Below are positions 8,605-21,726 of a stretch of DNA of 64,000 bases, piece by piece. A program made the position numbers and the translations under genes. The first letter of the stretch is position 1. Each line of letters starts with the position of its first letter. This stretch comes from an uncultured bacterium (GTDB lineage Bacteria > Bacteroidota > Bacteroidia > Chitinophagales > CAIODY01): NCBI GenBank assembly GCA_903857255.1, contig CAIODY010000123.1, positions 1 to 64,000 of the forward strand. Direction: 5' to 3'. Under the pieces are notes generated by a model that did not search any database, was not told the origin of the DNA, and saw only the letters and a program-made list of their open reading frames with translations.

Positions 8605-9960
8605 TTAATTCGGCATTTCTAATTCTTTATTCTGAATCATTTTATAAATAGTCGATTTACCAATATCCAATTTGTCGGCCACTCGAACCACATTATGGTC
8701 GTACTTGCGTAAAAAATGCTGAATAATATCTTGTGTATAAGCTCTCAAAGTTTTTTCTTCACTAATTAAATTTTGTTGCTTAGCAGTGGCAGATAAGTTC
8801 ACATCATCGGCTGTTATTTCTTTTCCGTTGCACATCACAGTTGCTACATCCATCAACGCTTTCAGCTCTCTTACATTGCCTGGAAAATGGTAGCCTAATA
8901 ATTTTTCTTGCGTATCGGCATGTATGCTTGGGATAGATAAATTATTGCTTTTGCAAAAATCTTCAACAAAATATTTTGCCAATAATAAAACATCACTTCC
9001 TCTTTCACGTAAGGCTGGTAACTCAATAGGCAAGCCAATTACACGATAGTATAAATCTTCTCTAAAATTCTTCAACGCTACTTCTTCTTTCAAATTTTTG
9101 TGTGTTGCTACAATTACTCTTACATCCAATTTTACTTTTTCTTCGCCGCCAACCCTTGTCAATTCACGTTCTTGAAGCACTCGTAATAATTTGCTTTGCA
9201 AATTCAAATCCAATTCGGCAATTTCATCTAAGAAAATTGTTCCACCATTCGCTTGCTCGAACAAACCTATTTTTCTGCCTGTTGAACCCGTGAACGAACC
9301 TCTTTCATGACCAAATAATTCGCTCTCAATCAAATCTTTTGGAATCGCAGCCATGTTTACTGCTACAAAAGGTTTTTTCTTTCTTTCTCCATTATAATGA
9401 ATTGCTTTTGCCACCAGCTCTTTTCCTGTGCCAGTTTCGCCAGTAATAGAAACATTAATGTTGGTTTGCGAAGCTTTTTCCATCATCGAGAATATTTTCC
9501 GAATCGCCAAGCTGTTTCCAATAATGGTTTTACTGAAGTCATATTTTTTCCCCAATTCATCTTTCAATACATCCACTTGTTTTTTGAGTGATGTATTTTC
9601 TTTGATGCGCATCACCATATTCCACAAGCGGTCTTTGGTGTTTTCATCCTTAATTAAATAGTCGTAAGCGCCATGCCGAAGCAAGTCAACAGCCGTGTTG
9701 ATGTTATCTTGTCCGCTGATAATAATGACAGGAATATCAGGGTCATACTGTTTTATTTTTTTCAAAAAATCTAACCCGTTGCCATCAGGCAAACTATAAT
9801 CGAGCGTAATTAAATCGGGCGATTCAGTTAAATGCCCAATGCAATCTTTGCCGTTCAAAAACTTTTGTACAGCGTAATCAGGGTTCATTGAAAGATGGTA
9901 CTCTAATAATTCGCCGTACCATGCGTCATCTTCTACTACGAAAATTTTAAAATTTTCCAT
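8605..9960 (-). CDS. NtrC-family response regulator (REC-AAA+-HTH)
   Basis: This encodes 451 residues. The receiver domain (1-125) has phosphoacceptor D54 in ITLDYSLPDG. The AAA+ domain has Walker A GETGTGK (174-180) and Walker B TIFLDE (241-246). The Fis-type HTH is at about 425-447 (RVADKLDIGKSTIYKMIQ). The sigma-54 contact loop reads GSFTGS (221-226) instead of GAFTGA. Such proteins remodel sigma-54 RNA polymerase from enhancer sites. It is divergent from the receiver and polysaccharide genes at 10297 onward and resembles that receiver closely, so regulation of the locus is likely. I saw no clear sigma-54 promoter nearby. Confidence 0.9.
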   Translation of the reverse strand: MENFKIFVVEDDAWYGELLEYHLSMNPDYAVQKFLNGKDCIGHLTESPDLITLDYSLPDGNGLDFLKKIKQYDPDIPVIIISGQDNINTAVDLLRHGAYDYLIKDENTKDRLWNMVMRIKENTSLKKQVDVLKDELGKKYDFSKTIIGNSLAIRKIFSMMEKASQTNINVSITGETGTGKELVAKAIHYNGERKKKPFVAVNMAAIPKDLIESELFGHERGSFTGSTGRKIGLFEQANGGTIFLDEIAELDLNLQSKLLRVLQERELTRVGGEEKVKLDVRVIVATHKNLKEEVALKNFREDLYYRVIGLPIELPALRERGSDVLLLAKYFVEDFCKSNNLSIPSIHADTQEKLLGYHFPGNVRELKALMDVATVMCNGKEITADDVNLSATAKQQNLISEEKTLRAYTQDIIQHFLRKYDHNVVRVADKLDIGKSTIYKMIQNKELEMPN

Positions 9961-10296
9961 TTGGGGTAAATAAAATTAATTGTCTAAAAACTGGAATTTC
10001 CGGAGTTTGATTTTTTCGCAATAAAAGTATTACTTCTATTTGATTTTTGCTAACCTAAAAATTGAACAACAATGAATTTAAAGGTGGAAAACAATTTAAA
10101 CACTTTCTGTTTTAGGCTTGCTTCAAAATTATCTTTGTAAGGTGCAAAGGCTGAATCATGCAGCATTTTTTGAGTGTTGGAAATTATTTCTTTAAATCAG
10201 ATTTTCATCATTTCAATTTCTTAAATGAGTGTTAGCATTTTGTTTCTTTTTTAATTTTTATTCAAATCAAAATTGTAAAAAATAAATTTTCACGTT
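9961..10296. promoter_or_regulatory. 336-base divergent intergenic region before the polysaccharide locus
   Basis: No gene was found here. A TATCTTTG box at 10130-10137 matches TAnnTTTG on the plus strand, about 160 bases before the receiver gene. Just after it, GCTG/CAGC followed by ATTTTTTG could form a weak hairpin. I looked for GG-N10-GC sigma-54 elements on both strands and found none convincing. It probably holds the promoters of both transcripts and binding sites for the NtrC-like regulator. Confidence 0.4.
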
Positions 10297-10728
10297 ATGA
10301 AATCAAAAGAAGATTTAAAAATTTTTGTGGTTGACGATGACCCATTTTGCCGAAAAATGTACAGCACCCAATTAAAAAAATTGGGCTATAACAATCTTGT
10401 TGAATTTTCAAATGGACAAGATTGTATCAACGAAATCATTCAAGAACCTATTGTCATTTTCTTGGATTACGAAATGGCGCCGATGAATGGTATGGAGGCT
10501 TTGAAAAAAATAAAACGTTTCGACCCCAACATTTTGTGCATCATGTTGAGCGGACAACAAGATATGCAAGTGGCTGTAAATATTTTAAAATACGGTGCTT
10601 TCGATTACATCATCAAAGGCAAAAACGAATTAGAAACCATTGCTGCCGTGATGCAAAAAGTTGAAAATGTAATTGAATTGCTCACACAACCACAACCCAA
10701 CAAATGGGCAAAATTATTTCCGTTTTAA
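10297..10728 (+). CDS. Single-domain response regulator
   Basis: This 143-residue receiver domain has no output domain. Acidic pocket VDDD (12-15), phosphoacceptor D57 in FLDYEMAPMNG, and conserved Lys in DYIIKGK. It shares NGQDCI, LDY, SGQ and GAFDYIIK with the receiver of the NtrC-like regulator across the divergent region, so the two look like paralogues. It lies 15 bases before the Wza-like gene and is probably the first gene of the polysaccharide operon. It may compete for phosphate from the HPt protein or act on a partner protein. Confidence 0.88.
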   Translation: MKSKEDLKIFVVDDDPFCRKMYSTQLKKLGYNNLVEFSNGQDCINEIIQEPIVIFLDYEMAPMNGMEALKKIKRFDPNILCIMLSGQQDMQVAVNILKYGAFDYIIKGKNELETIAAVMQKVENVIELLTQPQPNKWAKLFPF

Positions 10729-10743
10729 AAAATAAAATTATTA

Positions 10744-11496
10744 ATGCTGAATAACAAATCGGTTTCCATTTTATCTGTAATAGCAGTATTCATAGTGCTT
10801 TGCGGTTGTTCATCGCAAAATTTATTCAATTCAAAAATGGCAAGTAGTAAAGAGTTTTTTGCTTACAATCCAAAGTTGGAATACATTATTAAAAAGGATG
10901 ACAAAGTGATGATAAGCATTTGGAATCATGACGATTTAAGTGTGGGTACATTGTATAACAGTGCTTACAATTCAAACGAAGTATATGGCAAATGGATGAT
11001 GGTAAATGATAGTGGCATTATTAATTTGCCAAAGATTGGTCAATTTAAAATTGAAGGACTTTCGATGACGGCTGCCGAAGATTCGTTGAAATTGCGTTAT
11101 AAAAAACTAATCGTGAATCCGATTATGGAGGTAAGAATTTTGAATCGCGAAATTATTGTGATGGGCGAAGTGAAAACTTCAGGCAAACAATTGTTGGAAA
11201 AACAAAACAACACTTTGCTGGATGTGATTGCTAAGGCTGGTGATTTGGATATTTATGCCAACAAGAAAAAAATAAAAGTCATCAGAAAATTTGGCAACTA
11301 CTCGAAATTTGTAAACATCAACCTAACAAAAATGGATAGCACTTTGTCGCAAAATATTCCCGTTTTTCCAGGCGACATTGTGTATGTGCCAAGCCGCGGC
11401 ATGAAAGTGTGGGAAAAAAATTCCACCTCCATTATTTACCCACTTTCGGCAATTGTAAGTTCGTTGGTACTGTTAAGCAGCTTGCAAAAAAAATAA
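10744..11496 (+). CDS. Wza-like polysaccharide export lipoprotein
   Basis: This encodes 250 residues. The N-terminus is a lipoprotein signal ending LCGC, lipidated at C22. The poly_export domain (YIIKKDDKVMISIWNHDDLSV, about 49-70, to about 145) is followed by one SLBB-like segment (VMGEVKTSGKQLLEKQNNTL). The C-terminus has a hydrophobic helix (YPLSAIVSSLVLL), matching the amphipathic or membrane end of outer membrane export channels. It forms the outer membrane exit for polysaccharide with the Wzc-like inner membrane protein encoded ten bases downstream. Confidence 0.88.
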   Translation: MLNNKSVSILSVIAVFIVLCGCSSQNLFNSKMASSKEFFAYNPKLEYIIKKDDKVMISIWNHDDLSVGTLYNSAYNSNEVYGKWMMVNDSGIINLPKIGQFKIEGLSMTAAEDSLKLRYKKLIVNPIMEVRILNREIIVMGEVKTSGKQLLEKQNNTLLDVIAKAGDLDIYANKKKIKVIRKFGNYSKFVNINLTKMDSTLSQNIPVFPGDIVYVPSRGMKVWEKNSTSIIYPLSAIVSSLVLLSSLQKK

Positions 11497-11506
11497 CCAC
11501 AAATCA

Positions 11507-13663
11507 ATGAAGGAAACGAATTCAACCATCAACACATTGCGCCCATTTTATCGTGGCATTCCCATCATTATTTTGGTGTTGATTTTAGCTGAATTTTTCA
11601 TCGGGCGATATTTGAAATATGCAACGCCGATGTATGAAAGCACAGCCAAAATAAAATTAGCTGACCCACGAATGGATATGTCGAGCAGCCAGCTTTACAA
11701 GAACTTTGATGTGTTTGCCAACATCAATAATATTGGTGCTGAAGTAGAAGTTTTGAAGTCGAGAATTTTAACAGAAAAGGCGATAAAAAATTTGGATTTG
11801 CATGTGTCGATTTATCGAATTGGCGGCATCCGAAAAAAAGAATTGTATGACGAATCGCCGGTGTATATTATTGCCAGTATTACCAACCCCGAATGGGAAG
11901 AACAAAAATTTAAACTGAATGTAAATAACAATCGCGATTTAAAAATCACAACACCCGAAGGTGAAGTGGTTCAAGGCTTTTTGAATCAAATTATCACACT
12001 AAAAGGTGCGATGTTGAAAATAGATTTGAATGATTCGTTGATAAGAAGAAAACCCGATTTGGCTGTGAATGATAATTATGAATTTGTGGTTCATAATTAT
12101 GATAAATTGACGGACAAATTGATTGATGATTTAGATGTGATGTCGGTGGATAAAGATGTGGCGGTGTTAAGAATCAATTACAAATGTGCTGTGCCGCAAA
12201 AAAGTGCCGACATTGTAAATGCCGTAGCCACAGCCTATATCAACGATTACATCGAAACTAAATACAAATCCGCCGATACCACCGTTAACTTTTTGGAAGG
12301 CGAATTAAAAGGCTACACACAAAAATTATCGAGCAGTGAAGACCAAATGGAGCAATATCGCGATGCGAAAAGAATCATCAATTTGAATCAAGAATCGGAA
12401 ACTGATTTGCGAAAACTTTCAGACCAAAAGAAAGATTTAGCAACGCAACAAGGAACGATGTTGGCGATTGATAGTTTGTATAATTATTTGCAAAGTGGTA
12501 AGGATAAATTTTTAGAATTAGCCCCAAACTTCCAAGCCTACAACGATTTATTGAGCAGCGAAATGGAAAAACAAGTGAAAGCACTGCAATTAGAACGTCA
12601 AGAATTGTTGTTGAAATACACGCCTGAAAACGATAAAGTAAAAATCATTGAACAAAAATTACAAGCCATCAATGCTTATTTAATCGAGGGTGTGCACAAC
12701 ACACAAATCAATTTGCGAATCAGATACAAGGATTTGCAAAAGAGTATTGCCGAATCGGAACATGCTTTTGATGGATTTCCAACCAAAGAAAAAGAGTTGC
12801 GGATTTTAGAAAGAAATTTCAACATGAACGAACAAATTTTTCGGTTTTTGCACGAGAAAAAAACCGATGCAGAAATTGCTCGAGCAGCCACCATTTCGTT
12901 TCATCGTATCATTACATTTGGTGAAGTATCGCAAACACCAGTGTCGCCCAATGCGCCATTGTTAAAGGCTTTTGGTGGGTTTATGGCATTTCTGTTAGCT
13001 GTTTTTGGAATTTATTTTGTGCATTTCATGAAAGGCAGAGTAAGCGATGAAAATGCGATTTATAAAAATTCTGAAACACCAGTTTCTTACTCCATTCCTT
13101 ACTTTAAAAATCAAAATGAGAAAAATACTTTCTTCACCAAATGGGCTTTGGAGTTGAATTTGAATCACGAGTTGAAAAATTTAATCGTCAGCATTTCATC
13201 CATGAATGAGCTGGAAGGCAAGCGCACCAACGCAACAGGATTAGCTGAAGCCATCACTCGATTAGGAAAGAAAGTTTTGTACATCAGTGCCGATGGACGA
13301 ATGAAATCAGAATATGCCAATTATGATTTTTTGAATTTGCAAGATAGCCGCGAAAACTGGCGACTGCCAACGGTTTGGGCATCGTTAACTGAAAAGTGGT
13401 TGAAAGAATTTGATGTGGTAATCATTCAAAATTTAAGTGTTCAAAATGACTCTTCATCATTGATGTTGATGAAAGAAGCAAACGTAAATTTCTTTGTTTT
13501 AGATAGCCGCCGTACAAAAAAGAAAATGATGGAAGAAGCCGATGATACGTTCCAAAAAATCAGCATTCCCAATGTGAGTTATGTGCTGAATCGTGCAGGA
13601 TATACGCCCACTTTGTTTGCACAATTAAAACAATGGTTAAACAGAAACAAAACCAATGTTTAA
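11507..13663 (+). CDS. Wzc/GumC-like chain-length protein with degenerate ATPase
   Basis: This encodes 718 residues: a Wzz-type inner membrane protein with TM1 near residues 20-40 (IPIIILVLILAEFFI), a long periplasmic coiled-coil part, and TM2 near 485-505 (FGGFMAFLLAVFGIYF). The cytoplasmic C-terminus has the fold order of a bacterial tyrosine kinase but its motifs are broken. Walker A reads LEGKRTNA with R573 where Ser/Thr should be, the A' motif is YISADGRM, Walker B is VVIIQNLS, and there is no C-terminal tyrosine cluster (it ends LNRNKTNV). I infer a structural or regulatory pseudokinase that pairs with the export channel. Its end overlaps the flippase gene by eight bases. Confidence 0.85.
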   Translation: MKETNSTINTLRPFYRGIPIIILVLILAEFFIGRYLKYATPMYESTAKIKLADPRMDMSSSQLYKNFDVFANINNIGAEVEVLKSRILTEKAIKNLDLHVSIYRIGGIRKKELYDESPVYIIASITNPEWEEQKFKLNVNNNRDLKITTPEGEVVQGFLNQIITLKGAMLKIDLNDSLIRRKPDLAVNDNYEFVVHNYDKLTDKLIDDLDVMSVDKDVAVLRINYKCAVPQKSADIVNAVATAYINDYIETKYKSADTTVNFLEGELKGYTQKLSSSEDQMEQYRDAKRIINLNQESETDLRKLSDQKKDLATQQGTMLAIDSLYNYLQSGKDKFLELAPNFQAYNDLLSSEMEKQVKALQLERQELLLKYTPENDKVKIIEQKLQAINAYLIEGVHNTQINLRIRYKDLQKSIAESEHAFDGFPTKEKELRILERNFNMNEQIFRFLHEKKTDAEIARAATISFHRIITFGEVSQTPVSPNAPLLKAFGGFMAFLLAVFGIYFVHFMKGRVSDENAIYKNSETPVSYSIPYFKNQNEKNTFFTKWALELNLNHELKNLIVSISSMNELEGKRTNATGLAEAITRLGKKVLYISADGRMKSEYANYDFLNLQDSRENWRLPTVWASLTEKWLKEFDVVIIQNLSVQNDSSSLMLMKEANVNFFVLDSRRTKKKMMEEADDTFQKISIPNVSYVLNRAGYTPTLFAQLKQWLNRNKTNV

Positions 13664-14903
13664 AATTTTTCCACTTACCGAAAAACACTGGGTGATGGCT
13701 GACCAGGCGGTGGTTAGCGGAACAACTTTTGTAACCCAATTTTTAATCGCTCGTCAATTAGGCATCACCGATTATGGTTATTTTTCGGTGATGGTTTTGG
13801 GACAATTATTTTTGTTGTCGTTGCAGCAATCTGCCATCAGTGGGGTTTTTCAGGTGATGTTTCATCAAACCAAAGAAGTGAAACGACAAAAATATGTGAA
13901 TGGAATTTTGAGCATTCAATATCTTTTTTTGCTGCTCGTAGTTTTTGGTTCAATGCTGTATTATCATTTTGTTGAAAACACAGGATTGTCGAAATACGCA
14001 TTGGTAGTGGGTTTGAACATTGTTTTGTTTTTACTCGAAGATTTTTATCGCCGATATTTTATCACTATTGATGCTGCGCCAAAAGCATTTTTGATTGATG
14101 CCATCAACAATTTTGGGCAACTTTTTTTTCTGTTAATTTTTGCTTTTACTAATCGACTAACGCTCGAAAATACGCTTTGGATATGCGCTTTGAGCTTTGT
14201 GCCTGCAATTGTGATGTCGTTGTTTTGGGCAAAACCAAAAATGTTTAATTGGGCACATATTCAATACACATTTGTATTGCATTATGCACAAGCAAAATGG
14301 ATGTTACTTTCGGCATTGATGCAATGGTTGTCAGGAAATTTTTTTATCGTAGCTGCGGGCTGGTGGCTGGGTGCAGCCGCATTAGGTGCTTTGCGAATTG
14401 GGCAATATTTATTCGGTTTCATCAATGTTTTTATGCAAGCTGTTGAAAGTTATGCGTTGCCAAAAGTTTCTGAAACCACCTCGGATATTGCCGACACATT
14501 TTTATACTTAAAAAAATTGGTGTTAAAACTTTTTAAAACAGCTATTCCGATAATTATTTTGATTGTCATTTTCGCAAAACCTTTGTTGCAATTTTTAAAA
14601 ATTGAAACCACAGCCGAACATTTTTATGTTATCATCGGTTTGGCTGTAACGCAGATGGTGATTGTGTTTGGTTATCCTGTTCGCATTGCAATTAGAGTGT
14701 TAAAATTGAACAGAAATTATTTCATTGGCTATGTAATGGCAACCGTTTTTAGTTTACTAACAGCATACGTTATCATTCATCAATGGCAAGTGAAAGGTGT
14801 GGTATTTGGCATTTTTTGTTCGCAAATTATTTTGGTTAGTTATTGGCTTTGGGTGTTGAAAAAAAATCATTTTGACTCATGGAAATCATTCATCTCATTT
14901 TAG
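13656..14903 (+). CDS. Wzx-like polysaccharide flippase (MATE/MOP fold)
   Basis: This 415-residue polytopic inner membrane protein has about 12 hydrophobic segments. The start (ADQAVVSGTTFVTQFLIARQLGITDYGYFSV) is typical of oligosaccharide flippases in the MOP superfamily. It would move lipid-linked repeat units across the inner membrane. The start overlaps the preceding gene by eight bases and the end overlaps the next by 25, so it is translationally coupled in the operon. Confidence 0.82.
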   Translation: MFKIFPLTEKHWVMADQAVVSGTTFVTQFLIARQLGITDYGYFSVMVLGQLFLLSLQQSAISGVFQVMFHQTKEVKRQKYVNGILSIQYLFLLLVVFGSMLYYHFVENTGLSKYALVVGLNIVLFLLEDFYRRYFITIDAAPKAFLIDAINNFGQLFFLLIFAFTNRLTLENTLWICALSFVPAIVMSLFWAKPKMFNWAHIQYTFVLHYAQAKWMLLSALMQWLSGNFFIVAAGWWLGAAALGALRIGQYLFGFINVFMQAVESYALPKVSETTSDIADTFLYLKKLVLKLFKTAIPIIILIVIFAKPLLQFLKIETTAEHFYVIIGLAVTQMVIVFGYPVRIAIRVLKLNRNYFIGYVMATVFSLLTAYVIIHQWQVKGVVFGIFCSQIILVSYWLWVLKKNHFDSWKSFISF

Positions 14904-15979
14904 GCAAAGCCAATCCGCAGCGAATGAATGGCGTAAACAAAGTGGTTTATCAATTAGCTACTGAACAAACCAATGCCGGTAAAACTGTTGCTGTATATGG
15001 TATTGCAGCCGACACCAACATTAATTACCCTGAAAGAAATTTTACAACAAAACTTTTTCAAGCACAAAAATTTTCATTTCAGTTAGATGAAAATTTGAAA
15101 AAAGATATCATTAAAAAAAAAGGAAAAGCTATTTTTCATTTGCATGGTGGCTACATTTCTACACTTTTTTCTGCAGCTAAATTTTTGCACAAAAACAAAA
15201 TTCCATTTGTGTTCACACCGCATGGTGCCTACAATCTGATTGCGATGCAGCGAAGTGCATTTACCAAAAAAATTTACATCGCTTTGTTTGAAAAAAAATT
15301 ATTGCAATGGGCAAAATTTATTCATTGCATTGGCAAAAGCGAAGTGGATGGATTGAAAACCATTTACAAAACCGATAAGTGGAAATTAATTCCTTATGGC
15401 TTTGAAATACCAGCATTCAAGCCTATTTCAAAAGATAACACCAAACACTTAATTGGTTTTTGCGGACGATTAGATGTGCACACCAAAGGATTAGATGTGT
15501 TGGTAGATGCATTTATTTTGTTGCAAAAAAAATATGCCGATGCAGAGTTGTGGTTGATTGGCGACAGTGATGAAAGAAAAAATTTTGAAGAAAAAATTAT
15601 TGCAAAAAATATTTCGGGAATAAAATTTTGGGGCAGCAAATTTGGCGAAGAGAAAAATGAATTGCTGCAACAATTAAATGTGTTTGCTCATCCATCACGA
15701 AATGAAGGTTTGCCATCTGCCGTGTTAGAAGCTTGTGCAATGGGCATTCCAGCCGTTGTAACGGATGCTACAAATGTTGGCGATGTAATTGTAAAACATC
15801 AATGCGGCGAAAGTATTTTGGAATTGAATGCAGAAAATTTGAGCACCGCTATTCAAAATATTTTTGAAAAAATAAAATCAGATGGTGCTGAAAATATTGC
15901 CCACAAAGCAATTGAAATGGTGAAAGAAGAATTTGATTGGAAAAAATTGGTGAATAAATTCGATGAATTGTATTTTTAA
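14879..15979 (+). CDS. Glycosyltransferase family 4 protein
   Basis: This encodes 366 residues. The GT-B fold has a donor-binding half with GFCGRLDVHTKGLDVLVDA and the GT4 motif HPSRNEGLPSAVLEACAMG, including the E-x7-E pattern. It adds a sugar from a nucleotide donor to a growing lipid-linked glycan on the cytoplasmic side. It starts inside the flippase gene (25-base overlap), and the next gene's TTG start is three bases after its stop codon. Donor and acceptor cannot be read from the sequence. Confidence 0.88.
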   Translation: MEIIHLILGKANPQRMNGVNKVVYQLATEQTNAGKTVAVYGIAADTNINYPERNFTTKLFQAQKFSFQLDENLKKDIIKKKGKAIFHLHGGYISTLFSAAKFLHKNKIPFVFTPHGAYNLIAMQRSAFTKKIYIALFEKKLLQWAKFIHCIGKSEVDGLKTIYKTDKWKLIPYGFEIPAFKPISKDNTKHLIGFCGRLDVHTKGLDVLVDAFILLQKKYADAELWLIGDSDERKNFEEKIIAKNISGIKFWGSKFGEEKNELLQQLNVFAHPSRNEGLPSAVLEACAMGIPAVVTDATNVGDVIVKHQCGESILELNAENLSTAIQNIFEKIKSDGAENIAHKAIEMVKEEFDWKKLVNKFDELYF

Positions 15980-15981
15980 AA

Positions 15982-17310
15982 TTGAAGAGTAGCGTACAAA
16001 ATATCACTCACGAAAAATTCCTGAAGCAAACCAACTTCTGGCTGCACATCGTGCTGTTCATTATGATTGCCAGCTATTTTACTTGGAATGATAGTGTGAT
16101 TATTACACGTGTTTTCAAAACCTCGGCTCGTGTTTTTATGGCATTGGCAGCAATTATCATTTACTCAAAAATCATTAGCAAAGGAGCAGTAAATTCTTTC
16201 AAATGGAACAACGAATTGTCAATTGGTTTGTATGCTTGTTATCTGTTGCTGGGCTTGATTTCATTCAGTTGGAGTACCGACATCGGATACAGCGCATTGC
16301 AATGGGCAATGGATATTGCTGGATTAATTTTTGCTTACTATTTTATTAAATCGTTGTATTTACTCGATGAATTTTTTCCGAATGAAAATATTCGCTTCTA
16401 CAATTTGATGGGAAATATTTCATTTGTCATCATGTTGATTTTTACGGTCGGAATGATTGTTGACCCCGACCATTATTTTCGATTGGTGGAAGGTGGTGAA
16501 GATAGAAGACTTGGTGGTTACATCATGAATCCGAACGAATTAGGGATGTATTGCGGTTTAGGAATTTCATGTATCATTTTCGACTTGTACCGCAAGCCAC
16601 AAAAGGCTTGGACGATTTTTAAAATCTTGATTTTAGGCGTTGGATTAATCATGACAAAATCACGTTCATCATTAGTTGGCTTATTGCTCATTATCTTCTT
16701 TCATATTCGAGCAGCAAAAAATACGAAGCTCGAAATCCTTACCTACATTGGTGTTACAGCTGTTATACCGATTGCTATTTCAAAATTAATTTTGCGAAAA
16801 GGTGGCTTAGATGACATCCTAACATTCACAGGTCGTGGTCCATTTTGGGTAGCATTAATCACTGAAGGATTGCCTCGTGAACCTTTGCTGGGCTTCGGTT
16901 TCATGCGAATTAATTATACGGACACTTTCGGAAGTGTACACACTTACACAGCACACATGACACACAATACCTTTATACAAGTGTTGATGAATCTGGGTTT
17001 TGTAGGCTTTGCCATTGTTTTGTTTCAAATGATTTTTACTGTGAGAGGATTTTTAAAAGAAGAAAAAGAAAAACGATTGATGCTGCTTGGAATCCTTATT
17101 CCTGTTGTGATTAATTCATTTACTGAGTTTGGAATTTTTGGCGAAACCAACTACGGTATTCTGTTTTATCAAATGCTCATCTTGTTGATTTGTTTCAAAT
17201 TCAATCCAAGATTTACACCCAATGAAAAAAGATTCTTGAGAAGAAGAAGACCTGATTATATTTTTCAAAATGATTTAGGAATTGCAACGAATGGACGAAT
17301 GAAGGCTTAG
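15982..17310 (+). CDS. O-antigen ligase/polymerase (Wzy-like) membrane protein
   Basis: This encodes 442 residues with about 10-12 membrane segments. The large periplasmic loop and its end (TGRGPFWVALI, LLGFGFMRINY, then THNTFIQVLMNLG) match the O-antigen ligase/Wzy family, including the conserved His-Asn. It polymerises or ligates the exported glycan. The best start is a TTG at 15982, three bases after the previous stop; the first internal Met is already within the first membrane helix. Basic residues crowd the C-terminus (KRFLRRRRP). Confidence 0.82.
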   Translation: MKSSVQNITHEKFLKQTNFWLHIVLFIMIASYFTWNDSVIITRVFKTSARVFMALAAIIIYSKIISKGAVNSFKWNNELSIGLYACYLLLGLISFSWSTDIGYSALQWAMDIAGLIFAYYFIKSLYLLDEFFPNENIRFYNLMGNISFVIMLIFTVGMIVDPDHYFRLVEGGEDRRLGGYIMNPNELGMYCGLGISCIIFDLYRKPQKAWTIFKILILGVGLIMTKSRSSLVGLLLIIFFHIRAAKNTKLEILTYIGVTAVIPIAISKLILRKGGLDDILTFTGRGPFWVALITEGLPREPLLGFGFMRINYTDTFGSVHTYTAHMTHNTFIQVLMNLGFVGFAIVLFQMIFTVRGFLKEEKEKRLMLLGILIPVVINSFTEFGIFGETNYGILFYQMLILLICFKFNPRFTPNEKRFLRRRRPDYIFQNDLGIATNGRMKA

Positions 17311-17311
17311 C

Positions 17312-18493
17312 ATGGAAAAAATCTCTCAACATATTATTCCTGTTTTTGAAAAATTGAACATCGAATGTTCGACTGAAAAAAGCGACGAACAAAATATTGC
17401 AGTTCAACTTTTTTCATACAACAATCCTGATGGAGCAATTCGTTGGATTTTTCCTGCAAGTTCCAAAAGCCCATTAATGTTGAAGTTTTATGGAGTGATT
17501 GGTTGGAAATCAAAATTATTTTCAACAATGATGCGATTGATTTTTTTCTTCGGAATGAAAAAATTAATTGCCAAACAATACGAAGAAATATTTTTTTCAG
17601 AATTGGAATTTGAAAAATACAAAATTCAACTTGGTGCTGAATGGGCTTTGTTTACTGGCACTCCTGGCAAATTGCGAAAAGCATTGATTTATGTTTCAAA
17701 AAAATCTGAGAGGTTTTTTCTAAAAATTCCATTAACCGAAGCGGCAAAAGAAATTGTACAACACGAAACAAAATTTTTACATCAACTCAATCAATTTAAT
17801 TTTCAGCACACAAAAATTCCAAAAGAAAAATCAACTGAAAATTATTTGCAACAATCTGATTTGAGTGTGGAATGCAGCCACCGAAGCAGTATTTGGACAA
17901 TTGTGCATCAACAATCTGCCGAAGAAATATTTTCGTTTACAAAACAAAAAAAGAAAATTTCTGAAACAGAATTTTGGAAAAAAGTAAACCAGAATTTTTC
18001 TGAATTAAAAAGTCATCAAGCGCATCCATCAGTTCCTGAATGGAATTCAATCGTTGAAAAATTGTTTTTGTTGAAAAATAAAATTGATGTTGAACAACAA
18101 ATTTTTACTTCTATTGCTCATACTGATTTAACGCCGTGGAATTGTTTTTGCGATAATCAAAAATTATACATTTACGATTGGGAACTGGCAATGCTTGATG
18201 CGCCTGCCTTGTACGATTTGTTCCATTTTCATTTACAAGGAAATTGTTTGTTAGGCAATCAACCATTTGAAATTGTGAACCAAAAATTGCAAGGCACTAT
18301 TCAGCAAAAATCAATTCAACATTTCGCTGCTGATAATTCGATTGACATGGCTTTGCATTTGAAATTATATTTGTTGTATCATGTGAGTACATCAATGTGC
18401 TGGTATGCAGTGCAGCCCAATTTACATTTACAAGTACATTGGTTGATGAAACTTTGGAATGATTATTTAGACGAAATTTTACAAAACAATTGA
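17312..18493 (+). CDS. Kinase-fold phosphotransferase (APH/choline-kinase-like)
   Basis: This encodes 393 residues. The C-terminal third has the phosphotransferase signature: HTDLTPWN at about 269-276, holding the catalytic Asp and Asn, then YIYDWE at about 284-289 as the metal-binding Asp. An N-lobe-like segment (ALIYVSKKSERFFLKIP with Lys, then a Glu-bearing helix HETKFLHQL) precedes it at about residues 130-170. The first 120 residues are unassigned. It would phosphorylate a small molecule such as a sugar or alcohol. It sits between the ligase and the nucleotidyltransferase fusion, whose TTG start overlaps its stop codon, so the two products are probably needed together. Confidence 0.65.
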   Translation: MEKISQHIIPVFEKLNIECSTEKSDEQNIAVQLFSYNNPDGAIRWIFPASSKSPLMLKFYGVIGWKSKLFSTMMRLIFFFGMKKLIAKQYEEIFFSELEFEKYKIQLGAEWALFTGTPGKLRKALIYVSKKSERFFLKIPLTEAAKEIVQHETKFLHQLNQFNFQHTKIPKEKSTENYLQQSDLSVECSHRSSIWTIVHQQSAEEIFSFTKQKKKISETEFWKKVNQNFSELKSHQAHPSVPEWNSIVEKLFLLKNKIDVEQQIFTSIAHTDLTPWNCFCDNQKLYIYDWELAMLDAPALYDLFHFHLQGNCLLGNQPFEIVNQKLQGTIQQKSIQHFAADNSIDMALHLKLYLLYHVSTSMCWYAVQPNLHLQVHWLMKLWNDYLDEILQNN

Positions 18494-19785
18494 GAAAAGA
18501 ATTTTTAAATACTGTTCAAAATATTTTAGCCAACTACACTTATGTTGTGGTAAAACCATCGGCTGCAAACCTTGATGAATGGAGCGAATTCAGCGATATT
18601 GATATTGCGATTGATGAAAATTCAGCCATTAAAATTTGGGAAAAATTAGAGAAAAATGAGGTGGTAAAAAAAGTGAGAGCTGCTGATAAATCGTACATGT
18701 TTCAACTCTATTTTATTTTGAAAGATGATTCAATTGTCGCCATTGATTTTATTTTTCAGCACAAACATTTGCGTAAGCATTTAATGACTTTGGAAGAAAT
18801 GCTGTATCATAGAAAGCAGAACCAAAGCGGCTTGTGGGCGATGGATGAAATGGTGGAGTTTGAATTTATTTGGTTGTTTTATATGCTCAACAAAAGTGCA
18901 TTGCCTGAAAAATATGTGCAGCAATTCAATGCTTTCAACGATGATTTGAAATACAATATTATCCAACAATTGAAAGCCAAATATGAAACTGTGGTGGTGA
19001 AATTTGAGGAGCTATTTGCGTTGCAGAATTTCAGAAAAATTGTTTTGAAGAACATTTTCAAAAAGTCTGAAAACCGAGGATTGAAAGGACTTTCAAACAG
19101 AATTGATTATTATTTGGATTTAGGAAATGAATTCTTTTTAGCTGATGGTTTGATGATTACTTTTTCGGGTGTTGATGGCGCAGGAAAATCAACGGTGATT
19201 GAAAATTTAAAACATAAAATTGATAAACAATTAAGAAGAAGAGTGGTGGTGATTCGTCATCGTCCATCGTTGTTACCCATCATCAATGCATGGTTTGTTG
19301 GAAAGAAAAAGGCTGAAGAATTATCGGTTCAAAAATTACCACGACAAGGTGAAAATAAAAGTTCTATTTCATCCTTCATTCGTTTTGTTTATTATTTCAT
19401 GGATTATTTTTTTGGACAGTTTTGGATTGAATTAATTTATGTAAGCCGTGGTTATATTGTGTTGTACGACCGCTATTATTTTGATTTTATCAACGACAGC
19501 AAACGCAGTAATATCAAGCTATCCAAAGGCTTCACAAAGTGGTTTTACAGATTTTTAATCAAGCCCGATTTGAATTATTTTTTAACTGCACCAGCCGAGG
19601 AAATTTTAAAACGTAAGCAAGAATTATCTGCCGAAACGATTCATGAATTGACTGCTGAATACAAAAAATTATTTAGCGATTTGCAATCGAAAACCTCTAA
19701 AGTGAAATACGAAATCGTGAATAATATTGTGTTGGATGAAACGGTTGAAAACATTTTTAAGGATGTAAAAACTAAAACAATTTAG
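18490..19785 (+). CDS. Nucleotidyltransferase - thymidylate-kinase-like fusion
   Basis: This encodes 431 residues. The N-terminal domain has SDIDIAID with D36 and D38 and a third carboxylate D86 in VAIDFIFQ, the Asp triad of polymerase-beta-type nucleotidyltransferases. A linker follows. The C-terminal domain from about residue 220 is a P-loop kinase with GVDGAGKST at about 226-234 and LYDRYYFDF, resembling thymidylate kinase, though the downstream LID/substrate parts differ. The TTG start at 18490 overlaps the preceding stop codon. Its place in a glycan locus argues against a role in dTTP synthesis; activation or modification of a glycan building block is more likely. The true substrate is unknown. 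Confidence 0.7.
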   Translation: MRKEFLNTVQNILANYTYVVVKPSAANLDEWSEFSDIDIAIDENSAIKIWEKLEKNEVVKKVRAADKSYMFQLYFILKDDSIVAIDFIFQHKHLRKHLMTLEEMLYHRKQNQSGLWAMDEMVEFEFIWLFYMLNKSALPEKYVQQFNAFNDDLKYNIIQQLKAKYETVVVKFEELFALQNFRKIVLKNIFKKSENRGLKGLSNRIDYYLDLGNEFFLADGLMITFSGVDGAGKSTVIENLKHKIDKQLRRRVVVIRHRPSLLPIINAWFVGKKKAEELSVQKLPRQGENKSSISSFIRFVYYFMDYFFGQFWIELIYVSRGYIVLYDRYYFDFINDSKRSNIKLSKGFTKWFYRFLIKPDLNYFLTAPAEEILKRKQELSAETIHELTAEYKKLFSDLQSKTSKVKYEIVNNIVLDETVENIFKDVKTKTI

Positions 19786-19799
19786 CCACGAATGCACGA

Positions 19800-20489
19800 A
19801 TGAAATCAATCATCGAAAAAATATTACGTCTCCGAAATCCAAACTTTTCATTTCATGAAAAAGTGGATGGGCGACTATTGATGAGTTTGCTATGTTCCTT
19901 ATTAATCGGGCATTTGAGGACTTACAAACTTTTATTGAAAGGTTCTATGCCATCGCAATCAGCAATTGGAAAAAGATGTAGAACACAATATCAGCACAAA
20001 ATAAAATGGGGGAAAAAATTAAAATTAGGCAATGATGTTTTGTTGAGCGCTTTGGGAACAGAAGGAATTATTTTAGGTGATAATGTGGGAATTGGTTCTT
20101 ACAGTTGCATCATTGTTTCCACCACTTTTAATAATTTAGGTTCGTATATAAAAATTGGCAACAACGTGGGAATGGGCGAATTTACTTATCTCGGTGGTGC
20201 TGGTGGTTTGGAAATTGGCGATGATTGCATCATTGGTGAGTATTTAAGTTGTCATCCTGAAAATCATAACTATGCTGATTTGGAAACGCCGATTCGCTTG
20301 CAAGGTGTGAACAGAAAAGGAATCAAGATTGGAAAAAATTGTTGGATTGGAAGTAAAGTAACAATTTTGGATGGCGTTGAAATCGGCGATGGGTGCATAT
20401 TAGCAGCTGGTGCTGTGGTTACAAAAAGTTTTCCGCCAAACTCCATCATTGGTGGTGTGCCTGCAAAATTGATTAAAGAAAGAAAATAA
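19800..20489 (+). CDS. Left-handed beta-helix acyltransferase (WbbJ/MAT type)
   Basis: This encodes 229 residues. Hexapeptide repeats run from about residue 80 to 220 (LGDNVGIGSYS, IKIGNNVGMGEF, LEIGDDCIIGE, IKIGKNCWIGSKVTIL, GVEIGDGCILAAGAVV), and HPENHNY supplies the likely catalytic His. It ends in SIIGGVPAKLIK, typical of maltose/galactoside-type O-acetyltransferases. It probably acetylates a sugar of the exopolysaccharide using acetyl-CoA. The N-terminal 75 residues are an extra basic, partly hydrophobic segment. Confidence 0.85.
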   Translation: MKSIIEKILRLRNPNFSFHEKVDGRLLMSLLCSLLIGHLRTYKLLLKGSMPSQSAIGKRCRTQYQHKIKWGKKLKLGNDVLLSALGTEGIILGDNVGIGSYSCIIVSTTFNNLGSYIKIGNNVGMGEFTYLGGAGGLEIGDDCIIGEYLSCHPENHNYADLETPIRLQGVNRKGIKIGKNCWIGSKVTILDGVEIGDGCILAAGAVVTKSFPPNSIIGGVPAKLIKERK

Positions 20490-20493
20490 TTTT

Positions 20494-21726
20494 TTGAAAA
20501 CAATCCTCATAACCGCTTATGCAGTCAATCCTTACAAAGGCTCGGAAGATGCTATGGGATGGAATTTTGTAATGCAAGCTGCTCATTTTCAAAATGTATT
20601 TGCAGTAACCCGAAAAAATAATCGTGAGCATATCGAAAAATTTATTGCTCAAAATCCTCAATTAAAAAATCAAACAGATAGAATTCAGTTTTTGTATTAC
20701 GATTGGCACAAAGCATTTTTATTTTGGAAAAAAGGACCAATTTTGAGTTTGATTTATTTTTATTTCTGGCAGCTTGGTGTTGCACTTTTTTTAAAAAGAA
20801 AAAAATTGAACTTTGATGTTGCTCATCATTTAAATTTTCACAACGATTGGACACCAACTTTTTTGTGGATGCTCGGAAAGCCTTTTGTATGGGGACCTGT
20901 GGGGCATCATCCGAAAATAAAAAAAATGTTTTTGCAAGAGTATGATTTCTCTGCAAAGTTGTTGGATAGATTTCTGTGGGTGCTAAAAAATATTTTTTGG
21001 AAGCTCGACCCGTTCTTAAAAATTGCCAAAAATAAAGCCGCTTGCATTTGGTATATGCATCATGGTTCGGTTGAAAAATTGAAACCGAAAAATAATTTTT
21101 TCATTTCGCCATCTATCGCAGCGGAGGAAGTTGATTTTAAATGCAAACAATCAGTTGACTTTGTAATCCTTTCTGTTGGCAGGTTTGTGGCTTTGAAAGG
21201 TTTTGATGTAACGATAAAATCTTTCGCGAAATTTTATCATGGGCTTTCATTCGAAGAAAAACTGAAAACAAAATTGGTGATAGTTGGCACCGGAAAATAC
21301 AAATCAAAAGTGCGACAATGGATTTCAGAAAATAAAATTGAAAATGCCGTAGAAATGCATGAATGGATGCCTCGAGAGCAGTTGAAAAATATTTACAAGC
21401 AATCGGCTTTGTTCTTTTTTCCATCGCATGAAGGCGCAGGCATGGTGGTGGCAGAAGCGATGAGTGCTGATATGCCTGTGTTGTGTTGGAATAATTTTGG
21501 ACCTGGAGAAATCACTCATCCTGATTCAAAATTGAAAGTGAATTATTCAGATAATTATCAAAACGGAATTAATGAATTTGCTGAAAAACTGCAACAGCTT
21601 TTTTCTAACGAAACTTTTTACAAACAAGAGCAAATACTTGCTCATCAAAGATTTCAAAGCCTGTTGAAATGGAATGTGAGAGGTGAGCAGTTGAGGGAAA
21701 TGTATGAAAAGGTTAAGTTGCTTTAG
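20494..21726 (+). CDS. Glycosyltransferase (GT4-like)
   Basis: This encodes 410 residues. The N-terminus [22 protein letters not shown] binds the acceptor side; [15 protein letters not shown] and FVWGPVGHH follow. The C-terminal half has [19 protein letters not shown] and [17 protein letters not shown], the GT4 donor motif. It starts at a TTG four bases after the previous stop. It is the last gene of the polysaccharide operon and ends in a four-base convergent overlap with the serine dehydratase gene. Confidence 0.86.

Follow-up and report, generated by a model that had tools for sequence, protein, structure and literature searches.

The gene pair and its polysaccharide operon

The window, that is, the whole stretch of 64,000 nucleotides analysed here, comes from an uncultured bacterium of the Chitinophagales and carries two coupled genes within a polysaccharide operon, whose members described below all lie on the forward strand. 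The first gene (17312..18493) starts with ATG and encodes a 393-residue kinase of the APH/choline-kinase fold, assigned by its PF01636 score, an alignment of homologues and Foldseek. The second (18490..19785) starts with TTG and encodes a 431-residue protein in which a predicted nucleotidyltransferase (NT) domain of the Pol-β superfamily (residues 1-220, 18490..19149) is followed by a P-loop domain of the thymidylate-kinase fold (Tmk; residues 221-431 plus stop, 19150..19785). The kinase stop codon and the NT-Tmk start codon overlap by the four bases TTGA (18490..18493), and the same TTG/TGA overlap occurs in the congeneric sister genome G001, at a protein identity of 91%. Both reading frames, the overlap and all motifs named in the original prediction, which had been made from the sequence, were confirmed at the positions given there.

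Upstream of the pair lie genes for a Wza-like export protein (10744..11496, PF02563), a Wzc/Wzz-like co-polymerase (11507..13663, PF02706 and PF13807) with a poorly conserved kinase part (AAA_31 only at E 0.02), a membrane protein without a Pfam match whose role as Wzx flippase is deduced from its conserved position (13656..14903), a GT4-type glycosyltransferase (14879..15979, PF00534) and an O-antigen ligase/Wzy-like protein (15982..17310, PF04932). Downstream follow an LbH hexapeptide O-acetyltransferase (19800..20489, PF00132) and a second GT4-type glycosyltransferase (20494..21726). With Wza, Wzc, ligase/polymerase and glycosyltransferases, and with a flippase by position only, the window has the components of a Wzx/Wzy exopolysaccharide (EPS) locus. 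In the Wzc-like protein the Walker A motif of the tyrosine kinase is seemingly lost (EGKRTNATGLA), so this protein may be a pseudokinase. The operon start is flanked at 8605-10728 by genes for a sigma-54-type and a single-domain response regulator, and relatives of both recur in many homologous loci.

A scan of genome contigs yielded 51 homologous loci; one Firmicute match (L055, E 1e-3) was left out, which leaves 50 loci from Bacteroidota. Their conserved order is Wza-Wzc-Wzx-GT-ligase-[APH-NT-Tmk]-LbH acetyltransferase-GT-GT. The LbH acetyltransferase adjoins NT-Tmk in 46 of the 50 loci, and the second GT4-type gene is likewise found in 46. Because contig ends truncate many of the loci, all neighbour counts are lower bounds: at least 46 each for the LbH acetyltransferase and the GT4 at the second glycosyltransferase position, at least 43 for the third glycosyltransferase, at least 38 for Wzc, 35 for Wza, 34 for the protein in the Wzx position, 33 for the first glycosyltransferase and 32 for the ligase, as well as at least 26 for a DUF1972 glycosyltransferase and at least 23 for a polyprenol-phosphate sugar transferase. 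Among the 25 commonest families of unlabelled neighbours, a set in which singletons may be hidden, no dedicated phospho-substituent transferase was recognised, including LicD-like ones.

Folds and catalytic residues of the three domains

The kinase scores 22.7 bits against the Pfam family APH (PF01636), just below the gathering cut-off of 23.2, while its homologues in Leisingera, Agrobacterium, Legionella and Streptomyces reach 24.2-25.3 bits. Its matches to PDB profiles have E-values of 0.08 or worse, including a weak one to choline kinase (E 0.21). The catalytic residues K138, E152, H270, D272, N277 and D289 are all present, and H270, D272, T274, W276, N277, D289 and E291 are invariant in an alignment of 39 homologous kinases. 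The protein thus combines a protein-kinase-like fold with the HxDxxxxN motif, the downstream aspartate and the lysine and glutamate of the N-lobe. Its motifs are the nucleotide-binding loop FTGTPG (residues 114-119, 17651..17668), the catalytic loop HTDLTPWN (residues 270-277, 18119..18142) and the metal-binding YDWE (residues 288-291, 18173..18184), which is part of YIYDWE (286-291). Fold and catalytic residues are shared with the PF01636 family, which comprises LicA, macrolide phosphotransferases and methylthioribose kinase. Sequence similarity to that family is weak, however, and the kinase has signatures of its own, NPDGxIRW and a GTxG in the nucleotide-binding loop that is found again in homologues of other phyla; in many species it is also fused to NT-Tmk.

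For the NT domain, the metal-binding pair D36-x-D38 (18595..18603) and the third catalytic aspartate D86 (18745..18747) are invariant in 47 homologous NT-Tmk proteins, which gives it the D-x-D...D triad of the Pol-β superfamily. A sequence search of the PDB with this domain returned no match and no Pfam family fits it convincingly, so the fold assignment rests on the AlphaFold model (mean pLDDT 94.3) and on Foldseek. With few exceptions, the top-ranking PDB structures in Foldseek are nucleotidyltransferases of the Pol-β type (poly(A) polymerases, TUTases, CutA and ANT(6)). Since each of them is weak (best E 3.3e-3, TM 0.2-0.35), it is their consistency, together with the invariant D36, D38 and D86, that supports a Pol-β-superfamily nucleotidyltransferase. 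The original prediction had made this fold its own test, and the model upholds it. The G[GS] motif that typically precedes D-x-D in the superfamily is absent from the alignment, where a conserved lysine, K22, is seen instead. Membership in NTP_transf_5 (PF14907) was considered but is not supported, as a single one of the 47 proteins matches at E 0.018 and hhalign gives a probability of 28.5%.

The Tmk domain scores 34.3 bits against PF02223 (Thymidylate_kin; cut-off 27), and 30.4 bits in the NCBIfam dTMP kinase equivalog, below the threshold of 83.25. It shares with thymidylate kinases the fold, the P-loop GVDGAGKST (residues 227-235, 19168..19194), the DR(Y/H)/DRY motif and the general region of the LID arginines. 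The P-loop, with S234 nearly so, and DRYY are invariant in the 47 NT-Tmk proteins. In DRYYFDFI (residues 327-334, 19468..19491) the phosphate-binding DRY is kept, whereas the canonical TMP-recognition motif, SSYAYQ in the Tmk of relatives, aligns with D-F-I-N-D-S-K-R and is replaced by a conserved D-F-I-x-D-x-x-R pattern. Its linkage to NT and APH and its EPS context are further differences from thymidylate kinase. With SSYAYQ lost, the domain is probably not a dTMP kinase, and this replacement, beside the retained P-loop and DRY, suggests that its acceptor is a phosphate-bearing molecule other than dTMP.

Could the domain still serve as the housekeeping dTMP kinase, or supply dTDP-sugars for the polysaccharide? 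NT-Tmk is the sole PF02223 match in the genome of the window, and rfb genes are neighbours of the loci in Leisingera and Agrobacterium. We nevertheless consider both roles extremely improbable: SSYAYQ is replaced, and relatives of rfbB lie near only two of the 50 Bacteroidota loci. In addition, NT-Tmk is absent from 57 of 61 related genomes, and only four of the 61 contain a strong canonical match (E <1e-40). NT-Tmk is therefore no stand-in for a missing tmk. A strong PF02223 match to a canonical dTMP kinase was detected neither in the genome of the window nor in 57 of the 61 relatives, and these Bacteroidota may use a divergent enzyme as their dTMP kinase. Two weaker PF02223 matches in the sister genome resemble deoxynucleoside kinases, and the Bacteroides ihuae control genome was not among the controls that gave a PF02223 match.

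The invariance of the motifs in 39 kinase and 47 NT-Tmk homologues rules out that they arose by chance. A function in anti-phage defence was also discarded, because the PADLOC matches are short and restricted to the P-loop region. In Foldseek, the AlphaFold model of a Pedobacter sp. KBW06 homologue with all three domains (793 residues, mean pLDDT 86.1) finds thymidylate kinases (best E 2e-7) as well as macrolide phosphotransferase and methylthioribose kinase. Models, structural matches and invariant residues together bear out the APH-like, NT and Tmk-like assignments that had been proposed.

These structural matches bear on an alternative in which the glycan is phosphorylated directly, with the APH domain acting on a lipid-linked sugar much as WaaP acts on the LPS core, and with NT and Tmk extending or capping the phosphate. 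WaaP-type glycan kinases do have a protein-kinase-like fold. A serine phosphate is moreover extended by the lasso-peptide kinase ThcoK and by PsmK/PsmN (PMC9266682). The nearest structural matches, however, are kinases of small molecules (macrolide and methylthioribose), and we regard this alternative as distinctly unlikely.

Coupling and distribution of the module

APH, NT and Tmk are encoded in one reading frame in 26 of the 50 loci; 24 of these fusions are complete, one ends at a contig edge (L007) and in one the Tmk frame is broken (L053). A separate kinase gene is found in the same locus in 18 cases, adjoining NT-Tmk in 15 and lying apart in three (L019, L023 and L045), and five genomes carry the kinase elsewhere (L020, L037, L038, L047 and L051). 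The remaining locus (L054) is cut by a contig end, and in L036 gene calling did not recover the NT-Tmk frame as a single ORF. The predicted coupling therefore holds as a single polypeptide in about half of the loci, and the kinase is present in all other genomes that could be checked.

In a quick maximum-likelihood tree, the window pair nests within the fused proteins (SH-aLRT 94 for the group, with moderate support for the forks). The simplest explanation of the TTGA overlap is then that it was left behind when a fusion split, which suggests that the pair in the window derives from a three-domain protein. Among 297 Bacteroidota genomes searched with profiles at E 1e-10, the kinase was found in seven, Tmk in eight and both in six (hypergeometric P about 2e-10, shared ancestry ignored); in a further genome, the seventh with both parts (G218), a more divergent kinase overlaps NT-Tmk. 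The module is thus rare, occurring in about 2% of the sampled Bacteroidota genomes.

The operon of the sister genome is divided between two sites (L005 and L135). APH-NT-Tmk-LbH-GT are kept together behind genes for aspartokinase, thioesterase and homoserine dehydrogenase, and the half from Wza to the ligase is on another contig, at 86% DNA identity; misassembly or contamination of this MAG could also account for the arrangement. A 634-residue APH-NT homologue in genome G079 (L100, 9239-11143) has a decayed Tmk P-loop (GVKGTAGSA), possibly a natural loss of the third domain, and no Wza, Wzc or ligase was found near it.

Relatives outside this set were found by tblastn against plasmids. Those in Leisingera, Agrobacterium, Legionella and Streptomyces sit in polysaccharide clusters of the Wzx/Wzy type with a gene annotated as "phosphotransferase", and a fused one in Hymenobacter, also in a polysaccharide cluster, is annotated as "hypothetical protein". 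The kinase profile matches at E 1e-25 or better in Leisingera, Agrobacterium and Legionella, and weakly in Streptomyces (2.5e-4). The NT profile gives 1e-8 in Agrobacterium, a weak 0.008 in Legionella and a non-significant 1.2 in Leisingera, and it recognised no NT domain in the Streptomyces relative. On the Streptomyces plasmid (L129, 7836-11853), the genes of a stand-alone Tmk-like protein of 202 residues, the phosphotransferase, a GT4 and a member of the O-antigen ligase family form a group. The module is hence recurrent in polysaccharide loci of Bacteroidota, Alphaproteobacteria and Legionella, and probably of Streptomyces.

An enzyme that controls EPS output by phosphorylating or nucleotidylating a protein of the EPS machinery is another conceivable role. 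Some Pol-β-fold enzymes modify proteins, and the operon is flanked by response-regulator genes. On the other hand, three catalytic domains in one chain amid biosynthetic genes fit metabolism better, and separate regulators are already in place, so that we judge a regulatory role to be very unlikely.

Proposed chemistry and comparison with known systems

Neither protein has an assigned role, in keeping with the original prediction that a standard one in polysaccharide export is lacking for both. A search of the literature, as far as titles and the openings of abstracts reveal, brought up no description of an APH-NT-Tmk module. It is a real, widely distributed and undescribed enzyme module of EPS loci, in which known folds are newly combined, and whose chemistry we infer as follows. 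Because its parts are kept together in sugar-polymer clusters across phyla, the polymer probably receives a phosphate-containing group from the module. We tentatively hypothesize, with a confidence that falls a little short of even, that the gene pair encodes, in two halves, a cytoplasmic enzyme of three domains that is devoted to the EPS and either produces a phosphate-linked substituent for the repeat unit or attaches it there, ahead of flipping and polymerisation. In its favour are the well-supported folds with their invariant catalytic residues, their equally well-supported coupling and their constant position in Wzx/Wzy-type loci, with an O-acetyltransferase and GT4 glycosyltransferases as neighbours, as well as precedents, described below, for the use of kinases and nucleotidyl transfer in decorating glycans or peptides; the phosphate-linked product, the substrates and the order of steps are our inference.

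The APH-fold domain would phosphorylate a small molecule or sugar at a hydroxyl, and the Tmk-fold domain would pass a further phosphate to an acceptor, other than dTMP, that already bears one. A phosphoryl-linked group, either an NMP or the activated molecule itself, would then be moved by the NT domain to the glycan or its precursor, again at a hydroxyl. Characterised Pol-β-fold transferases mostly use hydroxyl rather than phosphate acceptors, which suggests a transfer onto a sugar or alcohol. Since no dedicated phospho-substituent transferase was recognised, the NT domain, the LbH protein or a glycosyltransferase would have to act as the transferase. The loss of the P-loop in the 634-residue homologue and the Streptomyces Tmk without a recognised NT domain indicate that the three steps are not always all needed. 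In an improbable variant, which would install a phosphodiester, APH makes X-phosphate, Tmk makes X-diphosphate (or extends it further) and NT transfers X-phosphate from this oligophosphate, instead of from an NTP, to a glycan hydroxyl, so that a single polypeptide would do without a nucleotide-linked intermediate.

Alternatively, the module may make an activated donor: APH would yield X-phosphate, NT would convert it to NDP-X, the Tmk-fold domain would phosphorylate the donor and a glycosyltransferase or other transferase of the locus would use it, on the pattern of Cj1415-1418 or LicA/LicC. Several GT4 glycosyltransferases are available in the loci, but the preference of Pol-β-fold transferases for hydroxyl acceptors and the lack of a recognised phospho-substituent transferase among the commonest neighbour families speak against it. 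A precedent exists in C. jejuni, where the capsule is decorated from a CDP donor with a 3'-phosphate that is made by Cj1415-Cj1418 (PMC11800397). All in all we consider such a pathway possible but unlikely.

Should the preferred reading hold, with the module serving to decorate the polymer, an unrecognised group containing phosphate is probably present on a whole class of EPS, and would alter the charge of these polymers, their binding of metals and the way in which phages or hosts recognise them. The annotations of its members do not go beyond "phosphotransferase" and "hypothetical protein", and the fused versions offer a single protein for direct testing of the chemistry.

Parts of the module resemble known systems. 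In the AmgK-MurU sugar-recycling pair, a kinase and a nucleotidyltransferase activate a sugar; MurU belongs to the NTP_transferase type rather than to Pol-β, and in contrast to the module the pair has no Tmk domain. By analogy, the module can be likened to the methyl-phosphoramidate donor pathway of C. jejuni, in which several capsule-locus enzymes make the donor of a phosphate-containing decoration and Cj1415-Cj1418 produce CDP-phosphoramidate 3'-phosphate (PMC11800397), although no counterpart of the Cj1417 hydrolase or of the Cj1421/1422 transferases was recognised in the loci studied here. A further analogy is provided by pseudomycoidin, a lasso peptide on which the kinase PsmK and the nucleotidyltransferase-family protein PsmN act in succession on one serine phosphate (PMC9266682), their substrate being a peptide.
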